A model generated the notes under the pieces. That model saw only the letters and a program-made list of their open reading frames with translations, ran no database searches and had not been told where the DNA came from. The translations under genes were made by a program, and so were the position numbers. This document shows positions 4,306-22,487 of a DNA stretch of 64,000 nt, in pieces; position 1 is the first letter of the stretch, and the number at the start of each line of letters is the position of its first letter. This DNA comes from a virus. The stretch spans positions 1 through 64,000 of IMG/VR virus record IMGVR_UViG_3300042908_001045. The stretch is one strand, 5' to 3'.

Positions 4306-4731
4306 TTAGTTCCAAAATCTTGTTTTATTAAAACTTGCATTATCCAAATTAGTTTTTTGGATAGTGCAACGTCTTAAATCTGCTTTTTTAAGATTAGCGT
4401 TCTTGAATATTGTCCCATTTAAATCAGAGTAAGACAAAACTGCTTCCTCTAAATTAGCGTCTGTGAAATTAGCATTTTTTAAATCAGCGCCTTTTAATAT
4501 AGCGCCATTTAATTTAGCATTTACTAAAATGGCGTTACTTAAAACAGCTCCCGTTAAATTAGCTTTTGTTAAATCAGCGTTTGTCAAATCAGCGCTTGTT
4601 AAATTAGCACCTATCAAATTAGTATTTGATAGGTCGTGTCCTTTTAAGTCAGCGTAACTTAAATCGGTATATTCAAGACTTTCCATATTTTTTTCAGTTA
4701 AAAGTACTTTGTTTATTTTATCAACAAACAT
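4306..4731 (-). CDS. Pentapeptide-repeat protein, 141 aa
   Basis: From about residue 24 onward the protein is a run of five-residue repeats of the A(D/N)LxX type (DLSNTNLIGANLTSADLTNA and so on), which form a right-handed quadrilateral beta-helix in this family. There is no signal peptide or transmembrane segment. Such proteins are abundant in cyanobacteria, and some phage or plasmid members mimic DNA to protect gyrase, but nothing here proves that role. It is a single gene ending in its own terminator. Confidence 0.88.
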   Translation of the reverse strand: MFVDKINKVLLTEKNMESLEYTDLSYADLKGHDLSNTNLIGANLTSADLTNADLTKANLTGAVLSNAILVNAKLNGAILKGADLKNANFTDANLEEAVLSYSDLNGTIFKNANLKKADLRRCTIQKTNLDNASFNKTRFWN

Positions 4732-5988: not shown

Positions 5989-6263
5989 GACTAGCACTTG
6001 CAATAGCCGTGTTTGCAAGTAATTCTATTTCATCGCAAACACAAGCACAAAGTAATGAATCATTGTTAATTCATAAATATAGTGAATTAATAGATAAAAA
6101 TCCACGAGACATAAACAGCTTATTAACCCGTGGTCTGCTATACCGAAAATTATATTTTTATGATGAGGCAATAGCTGACTTTAAAGCTGTGTTAAGAATT
6201 AACCCTAAGAATATCGAAGCAAAGAGAGAGCTAGATATCACTTACAAAGCTAAAAGAGGTTGA
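5967..6263 (+). CDS. Secreted small TPR protein, 98 aa
   Basis: I chose ATG 5967 because GGAG (5957-5960) sits six bases before it. An in-frame ATG at 5955 lacks such a site. The start has a short hydrophobic stretch (LGLALAIAVFA) ending in small residues, consistent with a signal peptide cleaved near TQAQ. One TPR unit pair follows, around LLTRGLLYRKLYFYDEAIADFKAVLRINPKN. It is probably exported, role unknown. The 3' end overlaps the convergent lipase gene by 22 bases. Confidence 0.65.
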   Translation: MGQHTGLGLALAIAVFASNSISSQTQAQSNESLLIHKYSELIDKNPRDINSLLTRGLLYRKLYFYDEAIADFKAVLRINPKNIEAKRELDITYKAKRG

Positions 6264-6901
6264 TTGATTTTACTAAGAGCCATTACGTATTCATTTACGT
6301 AATGGTTTTTGATTTTAGACCTTAACCCAAAAACAGAAAATTTATTGATGACTCCAATTGGATAAGCTGGGCAAACATGATGATAATCTCCTTGCCACCA
6401 TCTTGGCAGGCTTGGGACAATATCACTTGAATTAACTATTCTATACGTTGGTATTTCTAAGTCAGAGTATAACTGGGCAAAACATTTGTTTCCTGGTTTG
6501 GGAGATCCAAAAGTAACACAAGTAAGATTAGTGTTGTAGTAAAAAATTTTAATACTAAGAGCAGCTAATGTCGCTATAGCGCCTCCTAAGCTATGCCCTG
6601 TTAAAAATATTGGACGTGGGTCATCTTTTATTAATTTAAATATTTGGTGTTTAACGGATAAAAAACATTCTAAAAATCCAGAATGAACTTTAGCATTCCC
6701 AGCTAATGGAAATGGTTCTAGTTTTAAATCAATGTTTTGTCTCCAGTCTGTGATTGATTCACTGCCAGTAAACGCTATAATAATTTTGTCAGGTTGCTCA
6801 TTTATTAGAACTTCGGTATCTGTTGAAGTTCCAATAATAGTTTTAGTCTCATAAGCTCTTGCACAATGCTGACACAGATCTAAAATATCACGGTAATTCA
6901 T
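6242..6901 (-). CDS. Class 3 lipase-family alpha/beta hydrolase, 219 aa
   Basis: Fungal-type (class 3) lipase fold. The nucleophile elbow is GHSLGG with Ser104. The probable acid is Asp160 in NSSDIVP and the probable base is His200 in KNHYV, in the order and spacing of the family. An oxyanion-region motif, AFTGSESITDWRQN, lies near residue 43. No signal peptide is visible, so it would act in the cytoplasm or be released at lysis, possibly on membrane lipids. Its start codon is only nine bases from that of the divergent csf3-like gene. Family assignment is firm; substrate unknown. Confidence 0.85.
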   Translation of the reverse strand: MNYRDILDLCQHCARAYETKTIIGTSTDTEVLINEQPDKIIIAFTGSESITDWRQNIDLKLEPFPLAGNAKVHSGFLECFLSVKHQIFKLIKDDPRPIFLTGHSLGGAIATLAALSIKIFYYNTNLTCVTFGSPKPGNKCFAQLYSDLEIPTYRIVNSSDIVPSLPRWWQGDYHHVCPAYPIGVINKFSVFGLRSKIKNHYVNEYVMALSKINQPLLAL

Positions 6902-6910
6902 ATCATAATT

Positions 6911-7534
6911 ATGTTCTCTAATGTTAAAATAGTTGCCTCTTTGGTTAATCCTATTGCATTAAACGATAACTGGACCCCTAGCTTTGATGGGATTTTGTCA
7001 TATCAAATTTTGTTTAACGCTAGAATGCTTAAACAAAATCCTAGCATCGACCAAGTAAAGTCGGGATTAGCAATAGTAAAAGAGAATATCCCATTAGAAA
7101 TTGGGTATTTATCCAACGAAAAAACAAGTTGGTATTATAAAGCTAGTAGTCCGCACTATGTATTAAACAAAAAGCACAATCTTGGTACTGGAGCTACAAA
7201 ACCATGGAGAGTAACTTCTGAACTTACATGGTACTGTCGTGCTGATTTAGAAAAAATAGAAGAACTACTAGAGGCTATTCAATCGATAGGCAAATACAGA
7301 ACGCTATCTTATTCTGGTGTTAAAAGCTGGTTAGTACAAGAATTAGTAGAAGATTGTCATGTTTGGAAAGACAATAGACTTAGTCGTCCGGTCCCTTGTA
7401 TTTATTTGCAAGATGACAAGCGTGTACTCATGTGTGATTACAGGATAAAAGAGTGGGGATGGAGATGTCCCCCGTATTTGCCAGATAATCAAGCACAATG
7501 TTATATGCCTTTACACAATATTTCCAATGAGTAA
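6911..7534 (+). CDS. Second Csf3/Cas5-like protein (type IV CRISPR), 207 aa
   Basis: Clearly homologous to the Csf3 of the operon at 13496-14194. Shared blocks are PIAxxDNxxPSxDG (residues 14-27), SSPHY (79-83), the Gly-loop region (126-140), RLSRPVPCIY (147-156) and CYMPLHN (197-203). In Cas5-type RAMP proteins the Gly-rich loop helps hold the crRNA 5' handle. Here GYGQV of the operon copy has become SYSGV, so that loop is degenerate. The gene overlaps the thymidylate-synthase-like gene by eight bases (ATGAGTAA), so the two are co-translated. No other csf gene adjoins it. It could be a swapped or inhibitory subunit of the type IV-B complex or a repurposed RAMP. The start lacks an obvious ribosome site. 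Confidence 0.78.
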   Translation: MFSNVKIVASLVNPIALNDNWTPSFDGILSYQILFNARMLKQNPSIDQVKSGLAIVKENIPLEIGYLSNEKTSWYYKASSPHYVLNKKHNLGTGATKPWRVTSELTWYCRADLEKIEELLEAIQSIGKYRTLSYSGVKSWLVQELVEDCHVWKDNRLSRPVPCIYLQDDKRVLMCDYRIKEWGWRCPPYLPDNQAQCYMPLHNISNE

Positions 7535-8930
7535 CAACATTGCCATAGCAACAGGCTGGACAATTGCTTCTACCGTTTCTAAACACTTAGATCCAAGCAG
7601 TTATTTTGTCATAAAAGAGTTATATTCTTGTACTCCGGGAATTAATTTATTAGTTCGTAATTTACTAGCTAACACAACTATTCGTTATTTATTTTTGTTG
7701 AAAGCCAGTAAATATGATTTAAACTCTGGCTCTATAGATTGTGTCTTGGATTTTTTTGCTAAAGGAGTTCAACTGGGAAAGACAAATGGTGGGAGAACAG
7801 CATGGATAGTAGATTCAAAATACACGGCTTATATTGATGCTGAAATACCAAGTATTGCACTTGATAGTTTACGTATGTCTGTTCAAGTGTATGAATTTCA
7901 AGACATTTCCTCACTAGTAGAAAAAGTTAAATCTTTTAGTGATAAAACATCTAATCCTTGGGCTTCTCCAATGATATTTCCAGAACATAAGCCAGTTAAT
8001 CTAATAACTCCTGGGCAGTTAAATGGGCATAGAATAGAGTCAAGATTTATCCATGAAGCATGGGTCAAAATATTGCATAGAGTAAGAAGTAATGGCAAAA
8101 TTAGTGTAAGTTCTAGCGATATTTTATGGCAGGAGCTACTAAACGTTATTACTGTTATTACAGATGAGCCAGAAGATTTGATATTTCCAGAGCCTAACTA
8201 TTTGCCCATAGATAATTTTTTTATTGAAAAATATGTTTATCAAATGTTAAACGGTGGAGATAATTCTAGTAGTTATGGAACTAGAATGATTAGTCATTTT
8301 GGCATTAATCAAGTTGAATCTGTTGTTAATAATCTAAAAAACAACAGAATTTCTAACAGACTTGTAATTAATCTATGGGATGTTCAAAGTGATATAAAAT
8401 CACCGTCTCCACCATGCTTAAATCATGTTTGGGTTAAAATATATGACAATCAATTGTACATGACTGCAACTTTTCGCAGTAACGATATGTTTTCTGCATG
8501 GACTTCTAATGCCATGGGATTAAGAAAACTGCAATACCATATTTTCAATCAAATCAAAGAGCATTATTTAGATGTTAAAATGGGTTCTTTGTCTATTATT
8601 AGTGAAAGCGCTCACATTTATGAAGACTCTTGGACTGCTGCTGATGATATTATTCAGTGTCATTATCAACGTATTGTTAATAGGAAAGTTTTTGAAGACC
8701 CTGTTGGAAACTTTGTTATTCGCATTGATGATAATGCCATTTTAGTCACTCACGTAACTAAAGATGGTGAACAAGTAGCTAAATACACTGGCAAGTCAGC
8801 TACTTTGATTTGTAACAAAATTGTAGCTAACAATCCATCTATATTACCAGGACATGCGGCTTATCTTGGAATAGAATTAAATAGAGCTGAGAATAGCTTA
8901 CTCTTCGGCAAAACCTACTCTCAGTTCTAA
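7527..8930 (+). CDS. thyA: Thymidylate synthase-like protein with DUF4346-like tail, 467 aa
   Basis: The central part carries thymidylate-synthase landmarks: catalytic PPC with Cys297, the phosphate-binding RSND (317-320), Asn328 in the position that reads uracil, and HIY (363-365). The RSND...AW..NAMGLR pattern resembles archaeal-type enzymes more than bacterial ThyA. The N-terminus, with GINLLVRNLLANTTIRYL near residues 38-55, recalls MtrA-like pterin proteins. The C-terminus (about 389-460, with HAAYLGIELNRAE) matches my memory of cyanobacterial DUF4346. It likely methylates or hydroxymethylates dUMP for phage DNA. The retained Asn argues for dUMP over dCMP. It is coupled to the csf3-like gene and ends in a terminator. 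Confidence 0.72.
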   Translation: MSNNIAIATGWTIASTVSKHLDPSSYFVIKELYSCTPGINLLVRNLLANTTIRYLFLLKASKYDLNSGSIDCVLDFFAKGVQLGKTNGGRTAWIVDSKYTAYIDAEIPSIALDSLRMSVQVYEFQDISSLVEKVKSFSDKTSNPWASPMIFPEHKPVNLITPGQLNGHRIESRFIHEAWVKILHRVRSNGKISVSSSDILWQELLNVITVITDEPEDLIFPEPNYLPIDNFFIEKYVYQMLNGGDNSSSYGTRMISHFGINQVESVVNNLKNNRISNRLVINLWDVQSDIKSPSPPCLNHVWVKIYDNQLYMTATFRSNDMFSAWTSNAMGLRKLQYHIFNQIKEHYLDVKMGSLSIISESAHIYEDSWTAADDIIQCHYQRIVNRKVFEDPVGNFVIRIDDNAILVTHVTKDGEQVAKYTGKSATLICNKIVANNPSILPGHAAYLGIELNRAENSLLFGKTYSQF

Positions 8931-10490: not shown

Positions 10491-11627
10491 TTATTCCAGA
10501 AAGCTAGAAGTATTGGTTTTGCTTAAAAAATCAGATAAAGCGGTTAATTTAGTTTTTGCTCTATCAGACAAGATAGATGAATTCTCAGTAATTGTTAGAT
10601 ATTGACCTGCTTCTTGTCCAGAGCGATAGTAAACATCAACAGAAACCAATCCACATCCAGTGTTTCCTTTACCTCCTAGATAAGGTGCCAAAGCAAATTC
10701 AGACAGAGCATTAACGATAAAACCTTCCTCTACAGAAGTTATATCACTATCCCACCGGCTAAGAAGAGTGGAGCCTTTTTGGAGTAGCCAATCACCCATA
10801 ATCATCTGTTGGCTCTTAGATTCTTTTTTGTCTTTCTTTTTATCACTTGCTCCGAATAAAGATATCTGTCCTTGGTTTTCCTGTTCTAAATGTTTTGCAA
10901 GTTCAGAATCTTTTAAGCTATCTTGTCTGGTTTGCTGCCTATACGTTAAATATTGCGTATAAGGCTTTAGATCATTTTCTAAATTTGGCATCCATTTTTC
11001 AATAGCATTTCTGTATTTTTCTGTGCTAACAACTGAATTAATGTTGTTTAACCAGTTTTCAACTCGTGATTTTTCTAGTTCGTTTTTAGCTTCTACAATC
11101 TCTTTAACTGCTTCTAAACAATTGTAAGGAATAGCAGCAGGAAGAGTGTTGTAGATATATTCAGCTGTTTCTAAACAAACTAAATATGCTCCACCCACAT
11201 TGATGCGCCCTGGAATCATCTGTGATTCTTTAGAGCCAAATAGTCCAGTTGGCTTAGCAGTTCCCAGTAAAGAAATGCCAGGAAGATATGTTCTAATCTT
11301 TTTGTCTAGCTCTAAATCGTTGCCTGTAGAGCCGTCGATAAAACCGCCAGCAAACATAGTTTGATGGGTAGTAGGATTTACAGAATATCCACCTTCCTTG
11401 AGTTTATTTAAGAAAGAACTATTACCTATTCTTCTTAATATTTTGCCTCTTAAAGCATTGCCAGAATAGACAAATACTTCTGCACTATTGTTCTCTAAAT
11501 CTCTGACCTTTTCAACTCTTAAATTGCTCTGATTCCCAATAGCTTCACCAATATGCGATAAAGGTGATAATAACTTGATTACCAAATAAAACGTTATTTT
11601 ACTTCTATTTTCGTATGGATTATACAT
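10491..11627 (-). CDS. csf2: Csf2, Cas7-like backbone subunit of a type IV-B CRISPR complex, 378 aa
   Basis: A RAMP-type protein: the first strand and loop (YLVIKLLSPLSHIGEAIG), then SGNALRGKILRR near residues 54-65, then a Gly-rich loop LGGKGNTGCGL around residues 320-330. This architecture and length fit Csf2, the repeating backbone subunit that coats the guide RNA in type IV complexes. A charged, low-complexity insertion (DKKKDKKESKSQQ) sits in the middle. It is the last gene of the operon, overlapping the small-subunit gene by eight bases. Assignment rests on motif layout plus the csf1, cysH and csf3 neighbours. Confidence 0.8.
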   Translation of the reverse strand: MYNPYENRSKITFYLVIKLLSPLSHIGEAIGNQSNLRVEKVRDLENNSAEVFVYSGNALRGKILRRIGNSSFLNKLKEGGYSVNPTTHQTMFAGGFIDGSTGNDLELDKKIRTYLPGISLLGTAKPTGLFGSKESQMIPGRINVGGAYLVCLETAEYIYNTLPAAIPYNCLEAVKEIVEAKNELEKSRVENWLNNINSVVSTEKYRNAIEKWMPNLENDLKPYTQYLTYRQQTRQDSLKDSELAKHLEQENQGQISLFGASDKKKDKKESKSQQMIMGDWLLQKGSTLLSRWDSDITSVEEGFIVNALSEFALAPYLGGKGNTGCGLVSVDVYYRSGQEAGQYLTITENSSILSDRAKTKLTALSDFLSKTNTSSFLE

Positions 11628-12117
11628 TATTTTCTTCCTCTTCTGTAAGTTTCAATTCTTTTTCTTCTTCATGTCTTAGCCTAACTAATGCAGCAATTAG
11701 ATGGGGACAATCTTTAATTTGTTTTAAGATATGTCTATCAGTAACTCCTTGCATCTTTAAAGAATGTAAAATCTCTTCCCATCCCATCCATTGAAGTTTT
11801 ACATTCTCTTGATCTTGCTTCAACTCAACAATTTCGTCTTTGTTGTTAATCCTAAGTATTTTTTGTTGTGGGTTTAGTATTCTAGAAAAAACTGATGGAT
11901 TTAAATGATTTACCACTAGTTTTTTGGAGAAATTTTCTATGAAATCTGATACACTCCCACTAGGAATAACAGCATTAGACAGAGATGATTGAAAATATTC
12001 CCATGTCTTGATTCCCATTGCAGGAGACTTGTCTTTGTCCCTGCATAAAAAGCACCAGTAACTTAATGCACTGGCTAATCCTATTTTTGAATCATGCGTC
12101 TGAAATCCGTGCCACAT
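11620..12117 (-). CDS. cas11: Small-subunit (Cas11-like) protein of the type IV-B operon, 165 aa
   Basis: A mostly helical protein with no catalytic motif, placed between csf1 and csf2 exactly where type IV-B loci carry the small subunit that lines the belly of the complex. The C-terminus is a charged helix (HEEEKELKLTEEEENN). Sequence alone would not identify it; position and size do. It overlaps csf1 by 26 bases and csf2 by eight, so translation of all three is coupled. Confidence 0.68.
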   Translation of the reverse strand: MWHGFQTHDSKIGLASALSYWCFLCRDKDKSPAMGIKTWEYFQSSLSNAVIPSGSVSDFIENFSKKLVVNHLNPSVFSRILNPQQKILRINNKDEIVELKQDQENVKLQWMGWEEILHSLKMQGVTDRHILKQIKDCPHLIAALVRLRHEEEKELKLTEEEENNV

Positions 12118-12751
12118 ATCCTAACAGCGCTCCATAAGAAGTTGCTCTTGTCTCTTTTATTTTAGACTCTAATTGAGTCCATTCGTCAATACATTTCATT
12201 AATCTATCTGATCTATATTCCCCTGACATAATTTCTGTTTTTGAAAAACCAAGTTGCATAAGTTTTTCAAAATAATTCAAAGACTCAATAAAGTCTAGTC
12301 TATTTAGCCAAACAATTTCCTCTTCTAGTAAAACTGGAAAGAAATTTCTGTCATAAGCTACATGTCTAAATGGATAAGTATGCTTTTGTCCAGAAGTTGC
12401 TAAACAAATAGAGAATGGTGGTTCTGGTGGATCTATTATCCATTTTTTAATTAATTCTCTAGTTGGAATTTTGGTCGCAACTGGCAAATTATCACCATGG
12501 GGAGATTCACCAAAAGTAAAGACGGGATATCTCTCGGTTGTAGATTCAAGCCAACTCCAACATCTAGCAAATACTTTACTCCATGCTTGTTTAGATTCAT
12601 TGTAATACCATGCAGAAGTAGTGATAGCAAAATTACACTTATCGCAAATTAAGTTAGAAAAAGGATTTTTAGCCCTAGATCTCGCGGTAAATTTGTCTCC
12701 TAGTACTAATTTTTTACTAGCAGATTCTCCACAGAAAAAACAAGTTGTCAT
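12092..12751 (-). CDS. csf1: Csf1, zinc-finger large-subunit-like protein of type IV CRISPR, 219 aa
   Basis: Starts with a four-cysteine zinc finger (Cys4, Cys7, Cys36, Cys39) followed by a mixed alpha/beta body, the hallmark layout of Csf1, the signature subunit of type IV systems. A CxxC-x28-CxxC arrangement at the extreme N-terminus plus the flanking cysH-like and csf2 genes supports the call. Unlike large subunits of other class 1 systems, no HD or polymerase-type catalytic domain is visible. Its start overlaps the cysH-like stop by four bases. Confidence 0.8.
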   Translation of the reverse strand: MTTCFFCGESASKKLVLGDKFTARSRAKNPFSNLICDKCNFAITTSAWYYNESKQAWSKVFARCWSWLESTTERYPVFTFGESPHGDNLPVATKIPTRELIKKWIIDPPEPPFSICLATSGQKHTYPFRHVAYDRNFFPVLLEEEIVWLNRLDFIESLNYFEKLMQLGFSKTEIMSGEYRSDRLMKCIDEWTQLESKIKETRATSYGALLGYVARISDA

Positions 12752-13494
12752 GTATACCTCCTAATCTCTGGAAACATTAATGCAAACGCTTCATATTTAT
12801 CAGGAAAATGTAATCTCAGATTAGCTATTCGCCCCCAATTAATACCGGTTGTTCCAATTGGTGGTCCATTTCTAACAGTCATTCTATCTATGTCATACAT
12901 AGCAGGATATTTCAAACTAAAGTTATCAATATATTGCCAAATAGCTTCAGTTCTCCAAAATCCAACAGGACTGCAAACGACTAAATCAGCTTTAGTTTTA
13001 TAAACTAATCCATGTTTTTTCAAGTACAATGCTCTTCCTTTACTTTCTTGAGATCTAATGCCCCAAGCATATCCTTTGATATTGTTGTTTTCTGTGTACT
13101 CATCAAGTGGATCATACATCAACTTTTGATTAATAATTTTGTCCAGCTTAGTATTCATTTTACCGTCTAACGGAATGCCGTAATCTACATAAAGATTAAG
13201 TAAAGAACGAACTGGACAAAGTTCAACAACGTTTAATCCTTGCTCTTTATAATCTTCAATTAACTCTATACAATCTTCCCATTCAGCTAAGTGTCCTTGA
13301 TTGACCCAAACTAATGGGCATTGTGGATAGACAGTCGTAATCAAATGTGCGGCAACTAGACTGTCTTTGCCACCGGAGATTGAGCAGTAAACTTGAAAAT
13401 CGCACTCTATTAGCCACTGCTCAATAACTGTTTTAGCTTTACTAATAACAGATTTTAACCATGGTGCTTTAACGCCAGTTCCGGTAGATAACAT
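12748..13494 (-). CDS. cysH: CysH-like PP-loop protein of the type IV-B operon, 248 aa
   Basis: An adenine-nucleotide alpha-hydrolase of the PAPS-reductase fold. The PP-loop SISGGKDS is at residues 38-45 and the family motif GIRSQESKGR lies near residue 160. The cysteine motif (ECGxH) used by assimilatory PAPS reductases is absent, so it is unlikely to reduce sulfate. A cysH-like gene is a recognised hallmark of type IV-B loci; its job there is unknown. It may activate a substrate with ATP to modify a nucleic acid or a subunit. It lies one base after csf3 and overlaps csf1 by four. Confidence 0.85.
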   Translation of the reverse strand: MLSTGTGVKAPWLKSVISKAKTVIEQWLIECDFQVYCSISGGKDSLVAAHLITTVYPQCPLVWVNQGHLAEWEDCIELIEDYKEQGLNVVELCPVRSLLNLYVDYGIPLDGKMNTKLDKIINQKLMYDPLDEYTENNNIKGYAWGIRSQESKGRALYLKKHGLVYKTKADLVVCSPVGFWRTEAIWQYIDNFSLKYPAMYDIDRMTVRNGPPIGTTGINWGRIANLRLHFPDKYEAFALMFPEIRRYT

Positions 13495-13495
13495 T

Positions 13496-14194
13496 TTATA
13501 TTTTTACCGTATTATGCTTGGGCAAATAACACATTCTGCGGTTAGATAATAGCCAACCAGGTGGTTTAATACTCCAAACCAATTTTGGACAATCAACAAA
13601 TCTTGATGATACATTTTCATAAAATTCTTGTGCGTATTCTACAGGAATAGGGCGAGCTAATTTGTCTTTTCTGAAAAGATGATAATCCTGGTCTATAAAA
13701 CAAACTTCCCATTGAGAAACCTGCCCATATCCGTAGCTAGTTTTTTTCCCTAGTGCTTTACACGAAGTAATAATTTCCATAATTTCTTTGGCATTACCTA
13801 CCGCAAACCAATCAATTCTAGAAACTGTTTTAACTGGTAATGGTAAATCGTAAGATTTAGTATGTCCTACCGAAACATCTACTTTAGCTTTCTTTTTACC
13901 CCAATTACAGTTAGACTCCTGATAATCCCATCTTTTCCTGTATTTAGCTATTACAGCTTCAGAATATTGGTAATGAGGTGAACTGACAGCCCAATACCAA
14001 TCATCATTGCTTAGTTTAATTTTTAGTAATGGCAAATCAACATCAATTAAATCCGCTTCAGTTGGATTGGGATTAATAGGTATTCCCTGTTTTAACAAAA
14101 AAAAGTACTGCAATAATCCATCTAATGATGGACTATAGTTATCGTAAACAGCGATAGGCGACTGCAAATGTGCCGTTATTTGTAAATTTTCCAT
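13496..14194 (-). CDS. csf3: Csf3, Cas5-like subunit of type IV-B CRISPR, 232 aa
   Basis: First gene of the operon. Motifs: PIAVYDNYSPSLDG (13-26), SSPHY (71-75), LGKKTSYGYGQV with the RAMP-type Gly-rich loop (148-159), RPIPVEY (171-177) and CYLPKHN (222-228). In class 1 complexes the Cas5-type subunit caps the guide's 5' end. It has an intact Gly loop, in contrast to its paralogue at 6911-7534. A likely promoter lies at 14215-14243. The order csf3, cysH, csf1, cas11, csf2 puts csf3 first, whereas I recall it last in plasmid IV-B loci. Confidence 0.8.
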   Translation of the reverse strand: MENLQITAHLQSPIAVYDNYSPSLDGLLQYFFLLKQGIPINPNPTEADLIDVDLPLLKIKLSNDDWYWAVSSPHYQYSEAVIAKYRKRWDYQESNCNWGKKKAKVDVSVGHTKSYDLPLPVKTVSRIDWFAVGNAKEIMEIITSCKALGKKTSYGYGQVSQWEVCFIDQDYHLFRKDKLARPIPVEYAQEFYENVSSRFVDCPKLVWSIKPPGWLLSNRRMCYLPKHNTVKI

Positions 14195-16685: not shown

Positions 16686-19600
16686 ATGTTTAACGCAGCT
16701 ACCGCTAATCCAGTATTTTACAGAACATATTCTCGCCATACAGAGTATGGACGCGAATCATGGGAACAAGTTTGTTCTAGAACGTTAAAAGCGTTGGAAA
16801 AACTAGGTAAATTAAACACAGAAGAAATTGCATTAATTACTAAAATGCAAAGCAGTATGAAATCATTACCTAGTGGTAGATGGCTTTGGGTTGGCGGCAC
16901 AAAATGGCTGGAAAAGCCAGCTAACTACTCTGGAGCCTATAACTGCACGTCAACTAACTTAACCAGCTGGAACGCCTTTGCTTTAATGATGGATCTAGCT
17001 ATGATGGGCTGCGGAACAGGAGCAGTCATTGAGGAAAAATACTTTAGCAGATTACCGAAAATTACTAACAGTATTAACATCGATGTTTTTGGTGAACCAG
17101 GAGATGTATCACCAGAAGAAAGACAAGAAGAAACGTCCTGGACTGCCGCAGGTAACGGAAAATTTGTTATGTATGTTGGTGACAGTCGCAACGGATGGGT
17201 TGAAGCATATAAATTATTACTGGAAGCGGCTTCTAATACTATGTATCAAGGAGAGATAAGCATAAGTGTTTGTTTATCTCATGTTCGTCCAAATGGTGAA
17301 CCACTAAAATCATTTGGTGGAGTTGCTAACCCTGTTAAAATTAAAGACCTATTTGTGCGTTGCTCTGCAATACTTAATAAAGCAGTTGGTAGGCAGCTGT
17401 CATCCATAGAATGTTGTTTGCTAATTGATGAAGCAGCAAGCACTATAGTGGCTGGAAATATTAGGCGGTGTTTACCTGGCAATGCGTTAGTGCATACAGA
17501 GTCAGGCTTAGTACCTATCGCTAAGATAAGAATAGGAGATCGTGTTCTTACCAGCAAAGGATTTTACCCTGTAACTAACTTCTTTGATCAAGGTGAGCAA
17601 TCTCTTTGCAGAATCAAAACTCAAGACGGTAGTTTTGAGTGTACAGCAGAACACAAGATTGCTGTGTTAACAGATGTCTATGGCAACTACAAAATGGTTA
17701 AAGCCAAAGACTTGAAGCAAGGTGATAGATTGATACGTGTTCTAGAAGCCACAGAATTAATACCAGTTAAATTTGTGGACATTGAGTTTGATGTACGAAC
17801 TGCTCCCACTTACGACATAGAAGTTGCCACTGTGCATGAATTTGTGTGCGAAGGCATCTTAGTTTCAAATAGCGCCGGCATGCGCCAGTTCACTTCTAGT
17901 GATAACGTAGCTGCTAACGCTAAAGCAAATCTATGGGAGCAAACACCAACTGGAGAGTGGAGAATAGATCCAGAGAAAGATGCTTTGCGCATGGCAAATC
18001 ACACCAGAGTTTTTCACCAAAAGCCTACTTATAAGGAGGTGTTTGATTCAGTAACAAGTCAATATTGGAGTGGTGAAGGAGCAATTCAATGGGCTGGTGA
18101 AGCTGTCGCCAGAGCAAATGCAGATTTATTGATTACCCAAAAGTTAAAAGCAGAGTTCTTGAATGCTTATGAGAATGGTGGAGCCAAGGAATGGATAAGA
18201 AAAAATTATCCAAGCATGCCACATGCGGAGATAGAACATAGAGTAAGTACATATGGATTAAATCCGTGTGTTACTGCTGATACATGGATTCACACAGAAA
18301 AAGGAGCGAGGCAAGTTAAAGACTTGATAGGCAAACAAACCAGTGTTTACGTTGATGGAGAATTATTTAGCACCACACCCGAAGGTTTTTGGCTAACAGG
18401 AATCAAGCCTGTGCTAAAAGTGATTACTCAAGAAGGATATGAGTTGCGTTTAACTGACAATCATCAGCTACTCAAAGTTACTGCCCAGACTCAACGTAAA
18501 CAATATTCTGAGTGGACTGAAGCTAAAGATTTAAGTCCAGGACATTATATTTCAGTCCATAACCATCGTGAAGCACAGCATTGGGACAGTTTTGGAACTT
18601 TTGACGAAGGCTGGTTAATTGGCAATTTAATTGGCAATGGCAGCATCTCGTCAACACAGTGGGGGAAAACAGCACTTTTGCGATACTGGGAAGATTCTCA
18701 AGATGAGATGGGAAGACATGCTGTTGCTCTACTTGAAAAAACTGTTGATTATGCTGGAACTACAGAATCTGGACATTACTATGAACAGCAGAATTATCGA
18801 GTAGTCCAATCAACAGGATTAGCTAGATTAGCTGCTAGTTATGACGTTACGCTAGAGAACAAAATGCCAACAGGTAAAATCGAAGAAGCAAGTTATGAAT
18901 TTTACCGTGGTTTTTTACGTGGCTTATTTGATGCTGATGGGAGCGTGCAAGGAAATCAACAAAAAGGCATTAGCATCAGATTGTCACAAAGCAATCTAGA
19001 GACTTTGAAAATAGTCCAAAGAATGCTGGCGAGATTAGGTATTATCTCAACAATTTATCAAAAAGCACAACATGAACTTGTTATCAGTAATGATAATATC
19101 TGTGTCTTTCAAAACATTATTGGATTCCAAAAACCTGACAAAGCTAATCGCTTGAATGAATTAATTACCAGATATGAGCCAAAATTAAATCGTGAGCGAT
19201 TTGTAGTTAAAATCAAAGAGATTATACCCGATGGAGTAGAAGCAGTTTTTGACTGTACTGTTCCGGGAGTTTCTCGATTTGATGGTAATGGAATTGTCGC
19301 CCATAATTGTGGTGAAATTATTGGTAGCAATTTCCATTGTGTTAGTGGTGACACGCTACTAATTACCAAAGATGGATTACACGCAATCAAAGATGTTGTA
19401 GGATGCGATGTTGAGATTTGGAATGGTAGGAATTGGAGTCAAGTACAGCCATTTAAAACTGGCAGTTCTCGCGTTCTTTATCGTGTACGATTTGCGGATG
19501 GTACGTATTTAGATGCTACCGAATATCATAGATTCTTTGTTAAGGATAGGTTTGGCAAAGAATACAAAGAAGTACAGACAAAAGACTTAATGGATGCAAG

Positions 19601-22487
19601 TAAGTATCGTATTCACACCAAGCCATTTACTATTCAGTATGATGATGGATTGGATATTGATACTAATTATGCTTATGTCTTGGGGGTAGCCGTAGGAGAT
19701 GGCACCACAGACAAAGACGACAACGCAAAAATAAGATTGTATGGCAAAAAAATTGCCTTGTCTGTGGCAGGTAATAAGTCTCCCATTAGGGAATATGAAT
19801 ACGTTACAAACTTCACTGATGTTACAAATTTAAGCTTTTCTGGGGAATTTCTGAAGAGTCTCAAAACCAAACCAGAAGCATTAAACATCATAGCAAGTTG
19901 GAATCGTGAAGCAATTTTGCATTTTATTGCTGGTTTAGCAGATACAGATGGAACAAATAGTAGTGGCAATGGTATTAGAATCTACATCTCTGATTATGAC
20001 AGAGCGTATAGAATACAATTGTTGCTAATTAAGTGTGGCATTCGCTCTTCTGTCAATCTTTGTGCTTATAAAGGAGCAGTTACAAACTATGGAGTTAGAA
20101 GTAAAGATTTGTACTGTGTACAAGTAACTGATTGTAGTAAAATCCCTTGTCAGCGATTAGACGTAAGCCAAGGTAGAGTACCTAAATTTAAAGGTAAATG
20201 GCAAGTTATCAGGAGTGTGGAGCAATTACCGGGATTGCATGACACTTACTGTTTTAATGAACCACAATATCATGAAGGTGTATTTGGAAACACATTGACT
20301 GGGAATTGTAATTTGTCAGAAATACACTTGAATCAGCTCAATCCTACTGACTATAAAGAACAAGAAGATGCTTTTAAAGCAGCTTCACTCTCAGTAGCTG
20401 CATTGCTTCACCATAGATTCACCGAGCCTATTTATCAAGAATCTAGAGAGTTAGATCCTATTGTTGGTGTTTCCTTCACCGGATTATTTGACTTTTTTGT
20501 TCATGCTTTTGGAGCAGAATGGCTTCACTGGTGGCAACAAGAGAGAGAAGACAATGAGCAAGGCAGGATATTTAAACAAAAAGAACAAGAGTATTTATCT
20601 AGATGGAAAGACATAGTACATCAAACTGTTTGGGAATATTGCGATAAACACAATCTCAAACGTCCTAATCGTTGTACTACTGTTCAGCCCAGTGGGTGTT
20701 TAGATCGCACTGCATTAAGAATTTTTGATCAAGGCTTACTTTATGCGGATGAATTGATAGCACCTGGCAGTGGTGAAACTACTAATTTGAAACTAAGTGT
20801 TCGTGAAGGAGTGTCTGTTACCACAGGAATTGCTAATCAACCATTGCAATTGATTAAAGTCACATTACAGAATGGACGTATTTTACGTATGACTCCAAAC
20901 CATCGTCTTTCTATTGATGGAAACTGGATTTATGCGTCTGACATGACTCCTGGAATGAAGATTGATTTTAGTCTTGGGGAATATCAAAACACCCAAGAAA
21001 CTCCATTACTTGATATAGATCAATTTAGCTATACAAGAGAAGCGAGGCAATTAGAAGCTGGACATAATCGTGGCATCACAGCAACTATCATTAAAATGCC
21101 TAAAACAATGTCGCCTGACTTAGCTTATTTTATTGGAGCATTGTTTGGGAATGGATGTTTAAGTATATCCGGACATCGTATTAGGTTTTCTAGTAATAGT
21201 TATAAATTACTAGAAAGACTACAACAAATAGCACAAAATCTGTTTGTTGTAGATGGGAAAATCAATAAATACTCTGACAGAGCAGCCTATGAACTAAGCA
21301 TTTCTAGTGTTCAGCTTTATAATTGGTTGCAATTGACTGGAATAGCTAAAACGGAAAAAAGTTTAAATCTTGACAGAATACCATTAGCTATTCGTTGTTC
21401 CTCCAAACAAAGCATTTTATCGTTTTTCTGTGGATTAATTGACACTGATGGATGTATTAGGTCTAACGGTTCAATGTCGATTGATAGCGCCAGTGAAGAT
21501 TTCATTAGAAATCTTCAGCAAATTGGTGAAGCTGTGGGATTATGCTTTTCTATATTCCATAACACTCAAGGAAAGAACAACCAAGCACAGAAAAGTATGT
21601 GGGGTTTATGTTTAAGCCGCATGTTATCCAAACCTGATGCTTTAGATTATTTAAACAAGAATAGTCAAAAAGCTGAGATTCGTCCTATTCCTTCACTCAA
21701 GAGAAACTATAAGTTTGATCCATATCTCATTGAATCTGTGGAATGGGAAGAAACTCCTGATTATAGCTACGACTTTGCAGTTCAGGGAGAGGACGACAAT
21801 GATTCATGGTATTGGCAAGGAGCGATTAAATCACACAACACAAAGTCTTTGTTAACTGGCGCTTCTCCTGGTTGGCATCCTCCCAAAGCACAACAATTTA
21901 TCCGTCGGATTACTTTCCGTAAAAATGATCCAGTAGCATTGGCATGTATAGACTTTGGCTATAGTGTAGTTCCATCACAATCAGATAAAGATGAAAATGG
22001 TAACTTATTAGACAACCCATTTGATGAACGTTGTACAGAATGGTTAGTGGAAATACCAGTAGCTGTATCTTGGGCAAATCTACCAGGAGTTGATGTTGAT
22101 ATTTCCAAATTCTCCGTGTTGGCACAGTTTGATTTTTATATGCAAGTGCAGAAGTATTACACAACTCACAATACTTCAGCCACACTTGAACTACGCCAGA
22201 ACGAAATTGGTGCTTTAAGTAGAGCTATATATGACTCAATCGAAAACAATGACGGGTATATTTCTGCTGCTATTCTTAGCCGTTTTGACGATTTCCAGTC
22301 TTATCCTAGATTGCCTTTTGAGCCTATTAGCAAGGACAAATACTTGCAGTTAGTAAAAGAGGTAAATCAAAGAAAAACTAATGACGATTTCTTAAATGCT
22401 TTACACAAGTATGATAATGGATTTGATGACCAATCAGGACCTGCTCCATGTGATTCAGATAAATGTCTTTTACCGGAGTCAAAGTGA
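16686..22487 (+). CDS. nrdJ: Adenosylcobalamin-dependent (class II) ribonucleotide reductase with four inteins, 1933 aa precursor
   Basis: After protein splicing the exteins sum to 748 residues, the usual size of monomeric B12-dependent ribonucleoside-triphosphate reductase. Landmarks are YNCTST with the N-terminal redox cysteine, NPCGEI with the thiyl-radical cysteine (residue 875), HCNLSEIHLNQ, TTVQPSGTKSLLTGASPGWHPP, and the C-terminal CDSDKC pair that re-reduces the active site. Four inteins interrupt it at residues 262-395, 528-874, 885-1207 and 1338-1718. The enzyme makes dNTPs without oxygen or a second subunit. There is no clear ribosome site, and no B12 riboswitch is recognisable upstream. 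Confidence 0.93.
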   Translation: MFNAATANPVFYRTYSRHTEYGRESWEQVCSRTLKALEKLGKLNTEEIALITKMQSSMKSLPSGRWLWVGGTKWLEKPANYSGAYNCTSTNLTSWNAFALMMDLAMMGCGTGAVIEEKYFSRLPKITNSINIDVFGEPGDVSPEERQEETSWTAAGNGKFVMYVGDSRNGWVEAYKLLLEAASNTMYQGEISISVCLSHVRPNGEPLKSFGGVANPVKIKDLFVRCSAILNKAVGRQLSSIECCLLIDEAASTIVAGNIRRCLPGNALVHTESGLVPIAKIRIGDRVLTSKGFYPVTNFFDQGEQSLCRIKTQDGSFECTAEHKIAVLTDVYGNYKMVKAKDLKQGDRLIRVLEATELIPVKFVDIEFDVRTAPTYDIEVATVHEFVCEGILVSNSAGMRQFTSSDNVAANAKANLWEQTPTGEWRIDPEKDALRMANHTRVFHQKPTYKEVFDSVTSQYWSGEGAIQWAGEAVARANADLLITQKLKAEFLNAYENGGAKEWIRKNYPSMPHAEIEHRVSTYGLNPCVTADTWIHTEKGARQVKDLIGKQTSVYVDGELFSTTPEGFWLTGIKPVLKVITQEGYELRLTDNHQLLKVTAQTQRKQYSEWTEAKDLSPGHYISVHNHREAQHWDSFGTFDEGWLIGNLIGNGSISSTQWGKTALLRYWEDSQDEMGRHAVALLEKTVDYAGTTESGHYYEQQNYRVVQSTGLARLAASYDVTLENKMPTGKIEEASYEFYRGFLRGLFDADGSVQGNQQKGISIRLSQSNLETLKIVQRMLARLGIISTIYQKAQHELVISNDNICVFQNIIGFQKPDKANRLNELITRYEPKLNRERFVVKIKEIIPDGVEAVFDCTVPGVSRFDGNGIVAHNCGEIIGSNFHCVSGDTLLITKDGLHAIKDVVGCDVEIWNGRNWSQVQPFKTGSSRVLYRVRFADGTYLDATEYHRFFVKDRFGKEYKEVQTKDLMDASKYRIHTKPFTIQYDDGLDIDTNYAYVLGVAVGDGTTDKDDNAKIRLYGKKIALSVAGNKSPIREYEYVTNFTDVTNLSFSGEFLKSLKTKPEALNIIASWNREAILHFIAGLADTDGTNSSGNGIRIYISDYDRAYRIQLLLIKCGIRSSVNLCAYKGAVTNYGVRSKDLYCVQVTDCSKIPCQRLDVSQGRVPKFKGKWQVIRSVEQLPGLHDTYCFNEPQYHEGVFGNTLTGNCNLSEIHLNQLNPTDYKEQEDAFKAASLSVAALLHHRFTEPIYQESRELDPIVGVSFTGLFDFFVHAFGAEWLHWWQQEREDNEQGRIFKQKEQEYLSRWKDIVHQTVWEYCDKHNLKRPNRCTTVQPSGCLDRTALRIFDQGLLYADELIAPGSGETTNLKLSVREGVSVTTGIANQPLQLIKVTLQNGRILRMTPNHRLSIDGNWIYASDMTPGMKIDFSLGEYQNTQETPLLDIDQFSYTREARQLEAGHNRGITATIIKMPKTMSPDLAYFIGALFGNGCLSISGHRIRFSSNSYKLLERLQQIAQNLFVVDGKINKYSDRAAYELSISSVQLYNWLQLTGIAKTEKSLNLDRIPLAIRCSSKQSILSFFCGLIDTDGCIRSNGSMSIDSASEDFIRNLQQIGEAVGLCFSIFHNTQGKNNQAQKSMWGLCLSRMLSKPDALDYLNKNSQKAEIRPIPSLKRNYKFDPYLIESVEWEETPDYSYDFAVQGEDDNDSWYWQGAIKSHNTKSLLTGASPGWHPPKAQQFIRRITFRKNDPVALACIDFGYSVVPSQSDKDENGNLLDNPFDERCTEWLVEIPVAVSWANLPGVDVDISKFSVLAQFDFYMQVQKYYTTHNTSATLELRQNEIGALSRAIYDSIENNDGYISAAILSRFDDFQSYPRLPFEPISKDKYLQLVKEVNQRKTNDDFLNALHKYDNGFDDQSGPAPCDSDKCLLPESK
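17469..17870 (+). other. Intein 1 of the reductase (mini-intein, 134 aa)
   Basis: Begins with Cys after GNIRR and ends VSN before SAGMRQF. Splicing blocks are visible (CLPGNALVHTESG; GSFECTAEHKIAV; EFVCEGILVSN). No homing endonuclease domain fits in 134 residues. The penultimate residue is Ser where His is usual. Confidence 0.9.
18267..19307 (+). other. Intein 2 of the reductase (LAGLIDADG type, 347 aa)
   Basis: Begins CVTADTW after LNP and ends AHN. It has two LAGLIDADG-like helices (WLIGNLIGNGS and FLRGLFDADGS), so a homing endonuclease is probably intact. The +1 residue is the cysteine of NPCGEI, the catalytic radical site. Confidence 0.92.
19338..20306 (+). other. Intein 3 of the reductase (LAGLIDADG type, 323 aa)
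   Basis: Begins CVSGDTLL after SNFH and ends TGN before CNLSEIHL. Endonuclease motifs are YVLGVAVGDGT and FIAGLADTDGT. It lies only 10 extein residues after intein 2. The penultimate residue is Gly where His is usual. Confidence 0.9.
20697..21839 (+). other. Intein 4 of the reductase (LAGLIDADG type, 381 aa)
   Basis: Begins CLDRTALR after QPSG and ends SHN before TKSLLTG. Endonuclease motifs are YFIGALFGNGC and FFCGLIDTDGC. The +1 residue is Thr, and the insertion splits the conserved substrate-loop motif. Confidence 0.92.

Follow-up and report, generated by a model that had tools for sequence, protein, structure and literature searches.

Type IV-B CRISPR systems, including those of Mycobacterium JS623 (PMC7937560) and the Fuxiviridae (PMC10848311), serve a purpose that is unknown (PMC7937560, PMC8175902). 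The role of their Cas5 subunit, Csf3, is likewise open, including whether its thumb grips DNA (PMC7937560). In type IV-A3 complexes, the thumb loop of Cas5 inserts into the minor groove of DNA next to the PAM, and alanine changes of four thumb arginines abolish interference/protection (PMC11519345). Orphan Cas proteins that act as phage inhibitors are known, though few (PMC11656645; PMC13131331), and a 2024 review described the rarity with which viruses turn Cas proteins into inhibitors as an enigma (PMC11656645). One such inhibitor is AcrIB3, a phage Cas5 homologue without the Cas8b-binding hook; according to the account of Katz et al. 2024 given in PMC13131331, it replaces Cas5 in Cascade and renders the complex defective. 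The literature that we searched, of which our coverage was incomplete, described neither a stand-alone Csf3 nor a type IV-B inhibitor.

We analysed a stretch of 64,000 nucleotides (the window) that makes up bases 1-64000 of a cyanophage record 86,305 bases long. The window contains a complete type IV-B operon (10491-14194, minus strand) with the same five genes as the described systems: csf3 (13496-14194; PADLOC 3.8e-42), encoding a Cas5 with a full thumb segment and GYGQV loop; a cysH-like gene of the PAPS reductase family (12748-13494; PF01507 1.6e-12); the cas8-like csf1 (12092-12751; PADLOC 1.9e-23); cas11 (11620-12117; PADLOC 4.2e-10); and csf2, encoding Cas7 (10491-11627; PADLOC 1.6e-39). 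No cas6 match was found among these operon genes. Unlike the csf3 genes of type IV-B systems, a second, stand-alone csf3-like gene (6911-7534, plus strand, 207 aa) is located outside the operon and falls in a clade of its own. It sits next to a divergent class 3 lipase gene (6242-6901, minus strand; PF01764 5.7e-29) and overlaps the gene for a 467-aa thymidylate synthase (7527-8930, plus strand). A gap of only ~1.6 kb separates the synthase from the csf operon, which lies downstream on the opposite strand; the first-pass annotation was correct about the strand and modestly overstated the distance in placing the gene far from the operon.

Other features were recorded in passing. IV-B loci tend to adjoin ParB-like genes (L024 7606-9615, L030 6507-8960 and 14918-15505 in the window), and in two plasmids DUF3440 and GNAT genes fall in the same cluster as the IV-B locus. 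The window also encodes a pentapeptide-repeat protein (4306-4731; 96% identity in G001, a relative described below) and a 1933-aa ribonucleotide-reductase ORF (16686-22487) whose many Hint/intein and LAGLIDADG domains indicate several inteins with homing endonucleases. This ORF is 96% identical to that of G001 over 1542 aa, compared with 85% for the terminase. The ends of record G000 (bases 1-873 and the last 880 bases) form an inverted terminal repeat, 127 nt of it exact and ~890 bp at 87%, which may be an artefact of assembly and would otherwise be uncommon in a tailed phage record.

The 207-aa protein is a relative of type IV Cas5 (Csf3). It matched the PADLOC model PDLC01727 (typeIV_Cas5) at E=3e-26 and TIGR03116 at E=3.4e-6, under the curated cut-off of the latter model, and BLASTP aligned it with the operon Csf3 over its full length at 29% identity (E=3e-29). 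Because of this full-length alignment, the blocks common to both proteins lie far beyond chance, and the earlier claim of at least five shared motif blocks holds. Homology to the type IV Csf3/Cas5 family (TIGR03116, PDLC01727, PDB 7xg1, 8rc3, 8rc2) extends along the whole protein, taking in a predicted RRM/RAMP core and conserved SSP, LxRPxP, W and CY(M/L)PxxN positions. An AlphaFold model built from a four-sequence alignment, which is weak (mean pLDDT 60.7, C-terminus below 50), predicted the RAMP (RRM) fold that the first-pass annotation had expected; its only Foldseek matches in the PDB below 1e-3 were 7xg1_B (3.9e-7), 8rc3_F (4.7e-7) and 8rc2_F (4.9e-4), each the Csf3 chain of a type IV-A complex. 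Cas6 RAMP proteins ranked next. The model of the operon Csf3 (pLDDT 51.9) was too poor for comparison with that of the 207-aa protein. The best viral match in the fold search was a 240-aa protein, equal in length and similar in identity to the homologue of the isolate CrV-01T. Chance similarity to Csf3 is ruled out by the TIGR03116, PADLOC, full-length BLASTP and Foldseek matches. The gene is under purifying selection, with a dN/dS of 0.154 between the window and G001 (dS was saturated between Cr-LKS4 and L034); together with full-length ORFs in four lineages, this value rules out a decaying gene.

Aligning 37 Csf3s revealed what the stand-alone proteins have lost and kept. From the SSP motif to the second RRM, the four stand-alone proteins span 25-31 aa compared with 54-61 aa in the 33 operon Csf3s, leaving the thumb segment 24-30 aa short, or about half its length. 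In the window, the shortened inter-RRM segment is 25 aa long (SSPHYVLNKKHNLGTGATKP, residues about 78-98; 7143-7204, plus strand). The two GxG-loop glycines are present in 33/33 operon Csf3s and 0/4 stand-alones, a comparison in which the operon set includes near-identical viral sequences and the segment loss counts as one evolutionary event. Where the operon Csf3 reads KKTSYGYGQV, the G-loop region of the 207-aa protein (IGKYRTLSYSGV, residues 126-137; 7286-7321, plus strand) reads KYRTLSYSGV, in agreement with the first report that the GYGQV loop had been lost. Scored on residues conserved in close operon Csf3s, and with segment borders set after viewing the alignment, the stand-alones keep 14% of conserved residues in the thumb segment, where 50/72 cells are gaps, against 83% in the N-terminal RRM and 84% in the C-terminal part. 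The lost stretch holds a basic WGKKKAK-type loop, and the Cr-LKS4 branch also lacks the SxGxxK motif. This segment lines up with the IV-A3 Cas5 thumb that holds R102/R104/R105/R110/K119; the IV-A3 numbering is confirmed, since R102, R104, R105, R110, T114 and K119 all sit in the aligned stretch SPRTRRGLFTRVLLTGGPTK. From this alignment to IV-A structures, we infer that the stand-alones have lost the thumb, the part presumed to grip DNA.

Phylogenetic analysis traced the stand-alone gene to a single source. In a maximum-likelihood tree of the 37 Csf3s, the stand-alones form one clade (support 100/98) nested in a group (98/100) with Csf3s from the window operon, a Gloeobacter plasmid and cyanophage-type IV-B loci. 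In a smaller tree, an AU test rejected the pairing of the window stand-alone with its own operon copy (p=2e-4; p=7e-4 with G001 included). The nested clade and the AU rejection therefore establish one origin from a cyanophage/Gloeobacter-type IV-B Csf3; the AU results and the separate clade rule out a recent duplication of the window operon csf3, and the idea that the gene duplicates the phage's own operon copy falls away.

Stand-alone csf3 genes were found in six further phage records: G001 (93.6 kb), G002 (36 kb), the isolates Cr-LKS4 (OQ625504) and CrV-01T (MH636380), and two contig fragments. The carriers belong to a family of freshwater cyanobacterial viruses and are one phage group, with terminase identity to the window at 85% for G001 and 69-70% for Cr-LKS4. 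G001 and G002, near-identical to each other (99.75%), carry a csf3-like and synthase pair that shares 71% and 72-73% identity with the window, and the two isolates carry a stand-alone csf3 at 33% identity. Csf2 was absent from all six records. Local profiles of Csf1, Csf2, Cas11 and CysH, run against the window record, G001, 100/101 kb of Cr-LKS4 and 40 kb of CrV-01T, matched the window operon only, ruling out hidden other csf genes in these stand-alone carriers. At the matching place in G001, homologues of the operon flanks (8195-8452 and 8491-8799) lie 38 bp apart with no operon between them; what this branch has in common is therefore the stand-alone gene rather than the operon. Profile searches of genome contigs with the stand-alone alignment, and single-sequence searches of viral contigs with the 207-aa protein or the operon Csf3, returned nothing useful. 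The 207-aa protein is thus unlike type IV Csf3 in standing alone, in its 24-30 aa thumb loss and replaced GxG, and in that most carriers have no csf1, csf2 or cas11.

Cr-LKS4 also bears CRISPR arrays, built on a 36-nt repeat and holding at least 14 spacers, at L007 37526-39130 (Cr-LKS4 87.5-89.1 kb) and Cr-LKS4 68118-68380, and CrV-01T has a related array region. The Cr-LKS4 spacers gave no full-length match to sister phages, only 14-nt chance matches to G001.

Intact IV-B loci occur among the sister phages. A scan with a Csf2 alignment identified 32 viral contigs with IV-B genes; several of these (L043-L049) have sigma-factor and tail genes in common with the window record, and in two (G014 and G016) the terminase shows 65% identity to that of the window. 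All 14 IV-B records searched whole carry the operon Csf3 and none carries the stand-alone form. With Csf2 missing from the stand-alone carriers, the distribution is therefore either-or, a count based mostly on fragmentary contigs and on two sets that came from separate queries; the window is the only record with both a stand-alone csf3 and an intact IV-B. G004 has three intact Csf3s next to its IV-B genes. A compound IV-B locus was seen in a viral contig (L035 1372-8665), with three csf3, two cysH and two csf1 genes and partial extra csf2 and cas11 pieces. A related IV-B-type locus is found on a Gloeobacter plasmid; on Gloeobacter plasmid pGMOR1 (L018 9481-14488), a type IV locus with CysH, an annotated cas6 and a cupin gene mixes IV-A and IV-B traits.

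We also characterized the synthase that overlaps the stand-alone gene. Its catalytic domain spans about residues 170-377 (PF00303 1.3e-13) and is followed by a C-terminal DUF4346 (390-466; PF14251 2.6e-18). It is a ThyA-type enzyme of the methanogen branch described by TIGR03283, having the same Cys-motif catalytic domain and DUF4346 tail, and alignment to thymidylate synthases in the PDB showed that it keeps the catalytic Cys297 in SPPC297L. It differs from TIGR03283 members in overlapping a csf3-like gene and in scoring under the curated cut-off of 174.55 (2.7e-40, 138 bits). The archaeal-type synthase and the eight-base overlap (ATGAGTAA, 7527-7534, plus strand, identical in G001) are as first annotated; of the description 'fused into an operon', the overlap stands and no fused protein exists. 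The block of lipase, csf3-like and synthase genes is intact in the window, G001 and G002, the lipase staying next to the csf3-like gene, even though the block lies at different places on the genome maps; the linkage is therefore real in this branch. A C5 cytosine DNA methylase and a ParB-like gene lie near the block (L005 6165-7660 in G002; L004 132-1627 in G001). Among the six further records, only G001 and G002 have this synthase; it is absent from the two contig fragments and from Cr-LKS4 and CrV-01T, where the csf3-like gene has no synthase neighbour. These carriers rule out the pairing as a general rule: the conserved pairing that had been proposed extends to G001 and G002 and stops there. 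A motif scan for ThyX as an alternative synthase in these phages was empty, and searching genome contigs with the synthase gave one weak, unrelated match. The overlap is best read as lineage-specific, incidental and not needed for function, and the pairing as phage genes on one transcript rather than a joint enzyme system.

We propose, at about even confidence, that the 207-aa protein is a counter-CRISPR Csf3 mimic, dominant-negative on IV-B complexes and kept by freshwater cyanophages. It is a phage-encoded orphan homologue of an effector subunit and, judged by sequence alone, has lost a contact element while keeping its core. With the presumed DNA-gripping part gone, it probably acts as a decoy and blocks type IV-B machines; the dominant-negative option raised by the first-pass annotation fits an anatomy of intact core, lost thumb loop and lost G-loop glycines. 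Such a mimic and genuine Csf3 would compete to bind the Csf2 (Cas7) filament or the filament's guide RNA; once the mimic capped the complex, the thumb loop and G-loop glycines that a working effector requires would be missing. A IV-B complex joined and capped in this way could not engage its target and would be inhibited, the mimic acting as dominant-negative. Likely targets would be the IV-B systems of related phages or of cyanobacterial plasmids. The protein resembles AcrIB3 as an orphan Cas5 homologue on a mobile element that has lost an effector-contact element and kept the Cas5 core, and it differs in relating to type IV rather than type I-B, in lacking a thumb loop rather than a hook, and in that its inhibition is only predicted. 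AcrIB3 comes from Listeria elements, whereas the 207-aa protein occurs in tailed cyanophages. Against a mimic, the window phage carries both this gene and an intact IV-B operon, and a broad IV-B poison would therefore hit its own system. Csf3 specificity at 29% identity, or the timing of expression, could account for its tolerance.

Two other explanations merit tentative consideration. Possibly, though we doubt it, co-infecting cyanophages, or a phage and a plasmid, deploy type IV-B against each other as a weapon to which the stand-alone Csf3 confers immunity. Were that so, the phages of one family would carry either weapon or antidote, and the window phage both. On an equally doubtful view, the protein is an exapted RAMP whose new role has nothing to do with CRISPR: having kept its fold and left the Csf complex, it would bind RNA during infection, for example mRNA of the host or the phage. 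This would suit its occurrence in phages that have no other csf gene, the loss of the G-loop glycines, and the upkeep of two divergent sub-lineages (33% identity), one with the dN/dS given above; yet the N- and C-terminal Csf3 residues are kept at 83-84% despite the divergence, suggesting that Csf-facing surfaces are still selected.

We consider it unlikely that the protein is an alternative guide-capping subunit, one that enters the IV-B complex of the phage itself or of a helper element and alters the choice of RNA or target without blocking it. The window does have both genes, IV-B forms on non-specific RNA with the role of Csf3 there open (PMC7937560), and the three intact Csf3s of G004 show that multiple Csf3s do occur. 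However, Csf2 is missing from six stand-alone records, and the stand-alone form from 14 records that have Csf2. More improbable still is a remnant of a lost IV-B locus serving as an adaptor through which the phage-borne arrays of Cr-LKS4 and CrV-01T use host Cas proteins: Cr-LKS4 has its 36-nt-repeat arrays and no other csf gene, but a simple repeat scan found no clear array in the window record or G001, and no link between repeats and csf3 was seen. A functional partnership with the synthase in nucleotide metabolism or DNA modification is very improbable, for although the overlap is conserved in the window and G001, the block has relocated together and the two genes have similar dN/dS (0.15 and 0.172, window versus G001), four carriers lack this synthase, its catalytic Cys motif is intact and its family needs no Csf3 partner. 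What survives of the suggested Cas5 coupled to nucleotide metabolism is a stand-alone gene under selection, without the coupling; no evidence was found to support a role in modified DNA.

Our preferred reading thus remains a Csf3 mimic that would act against IV-B complexes. A conserved phage mimic of this kind, together with intact IV-B in sister phages, makes the 207-aa protein a natural candidate IV-B inhibitor. These phages also form a matched set for testing IV-B function, one that includes the cultivable Cr-LKS4 and its Raphidiopsis (Cylindrospermopsis) host.
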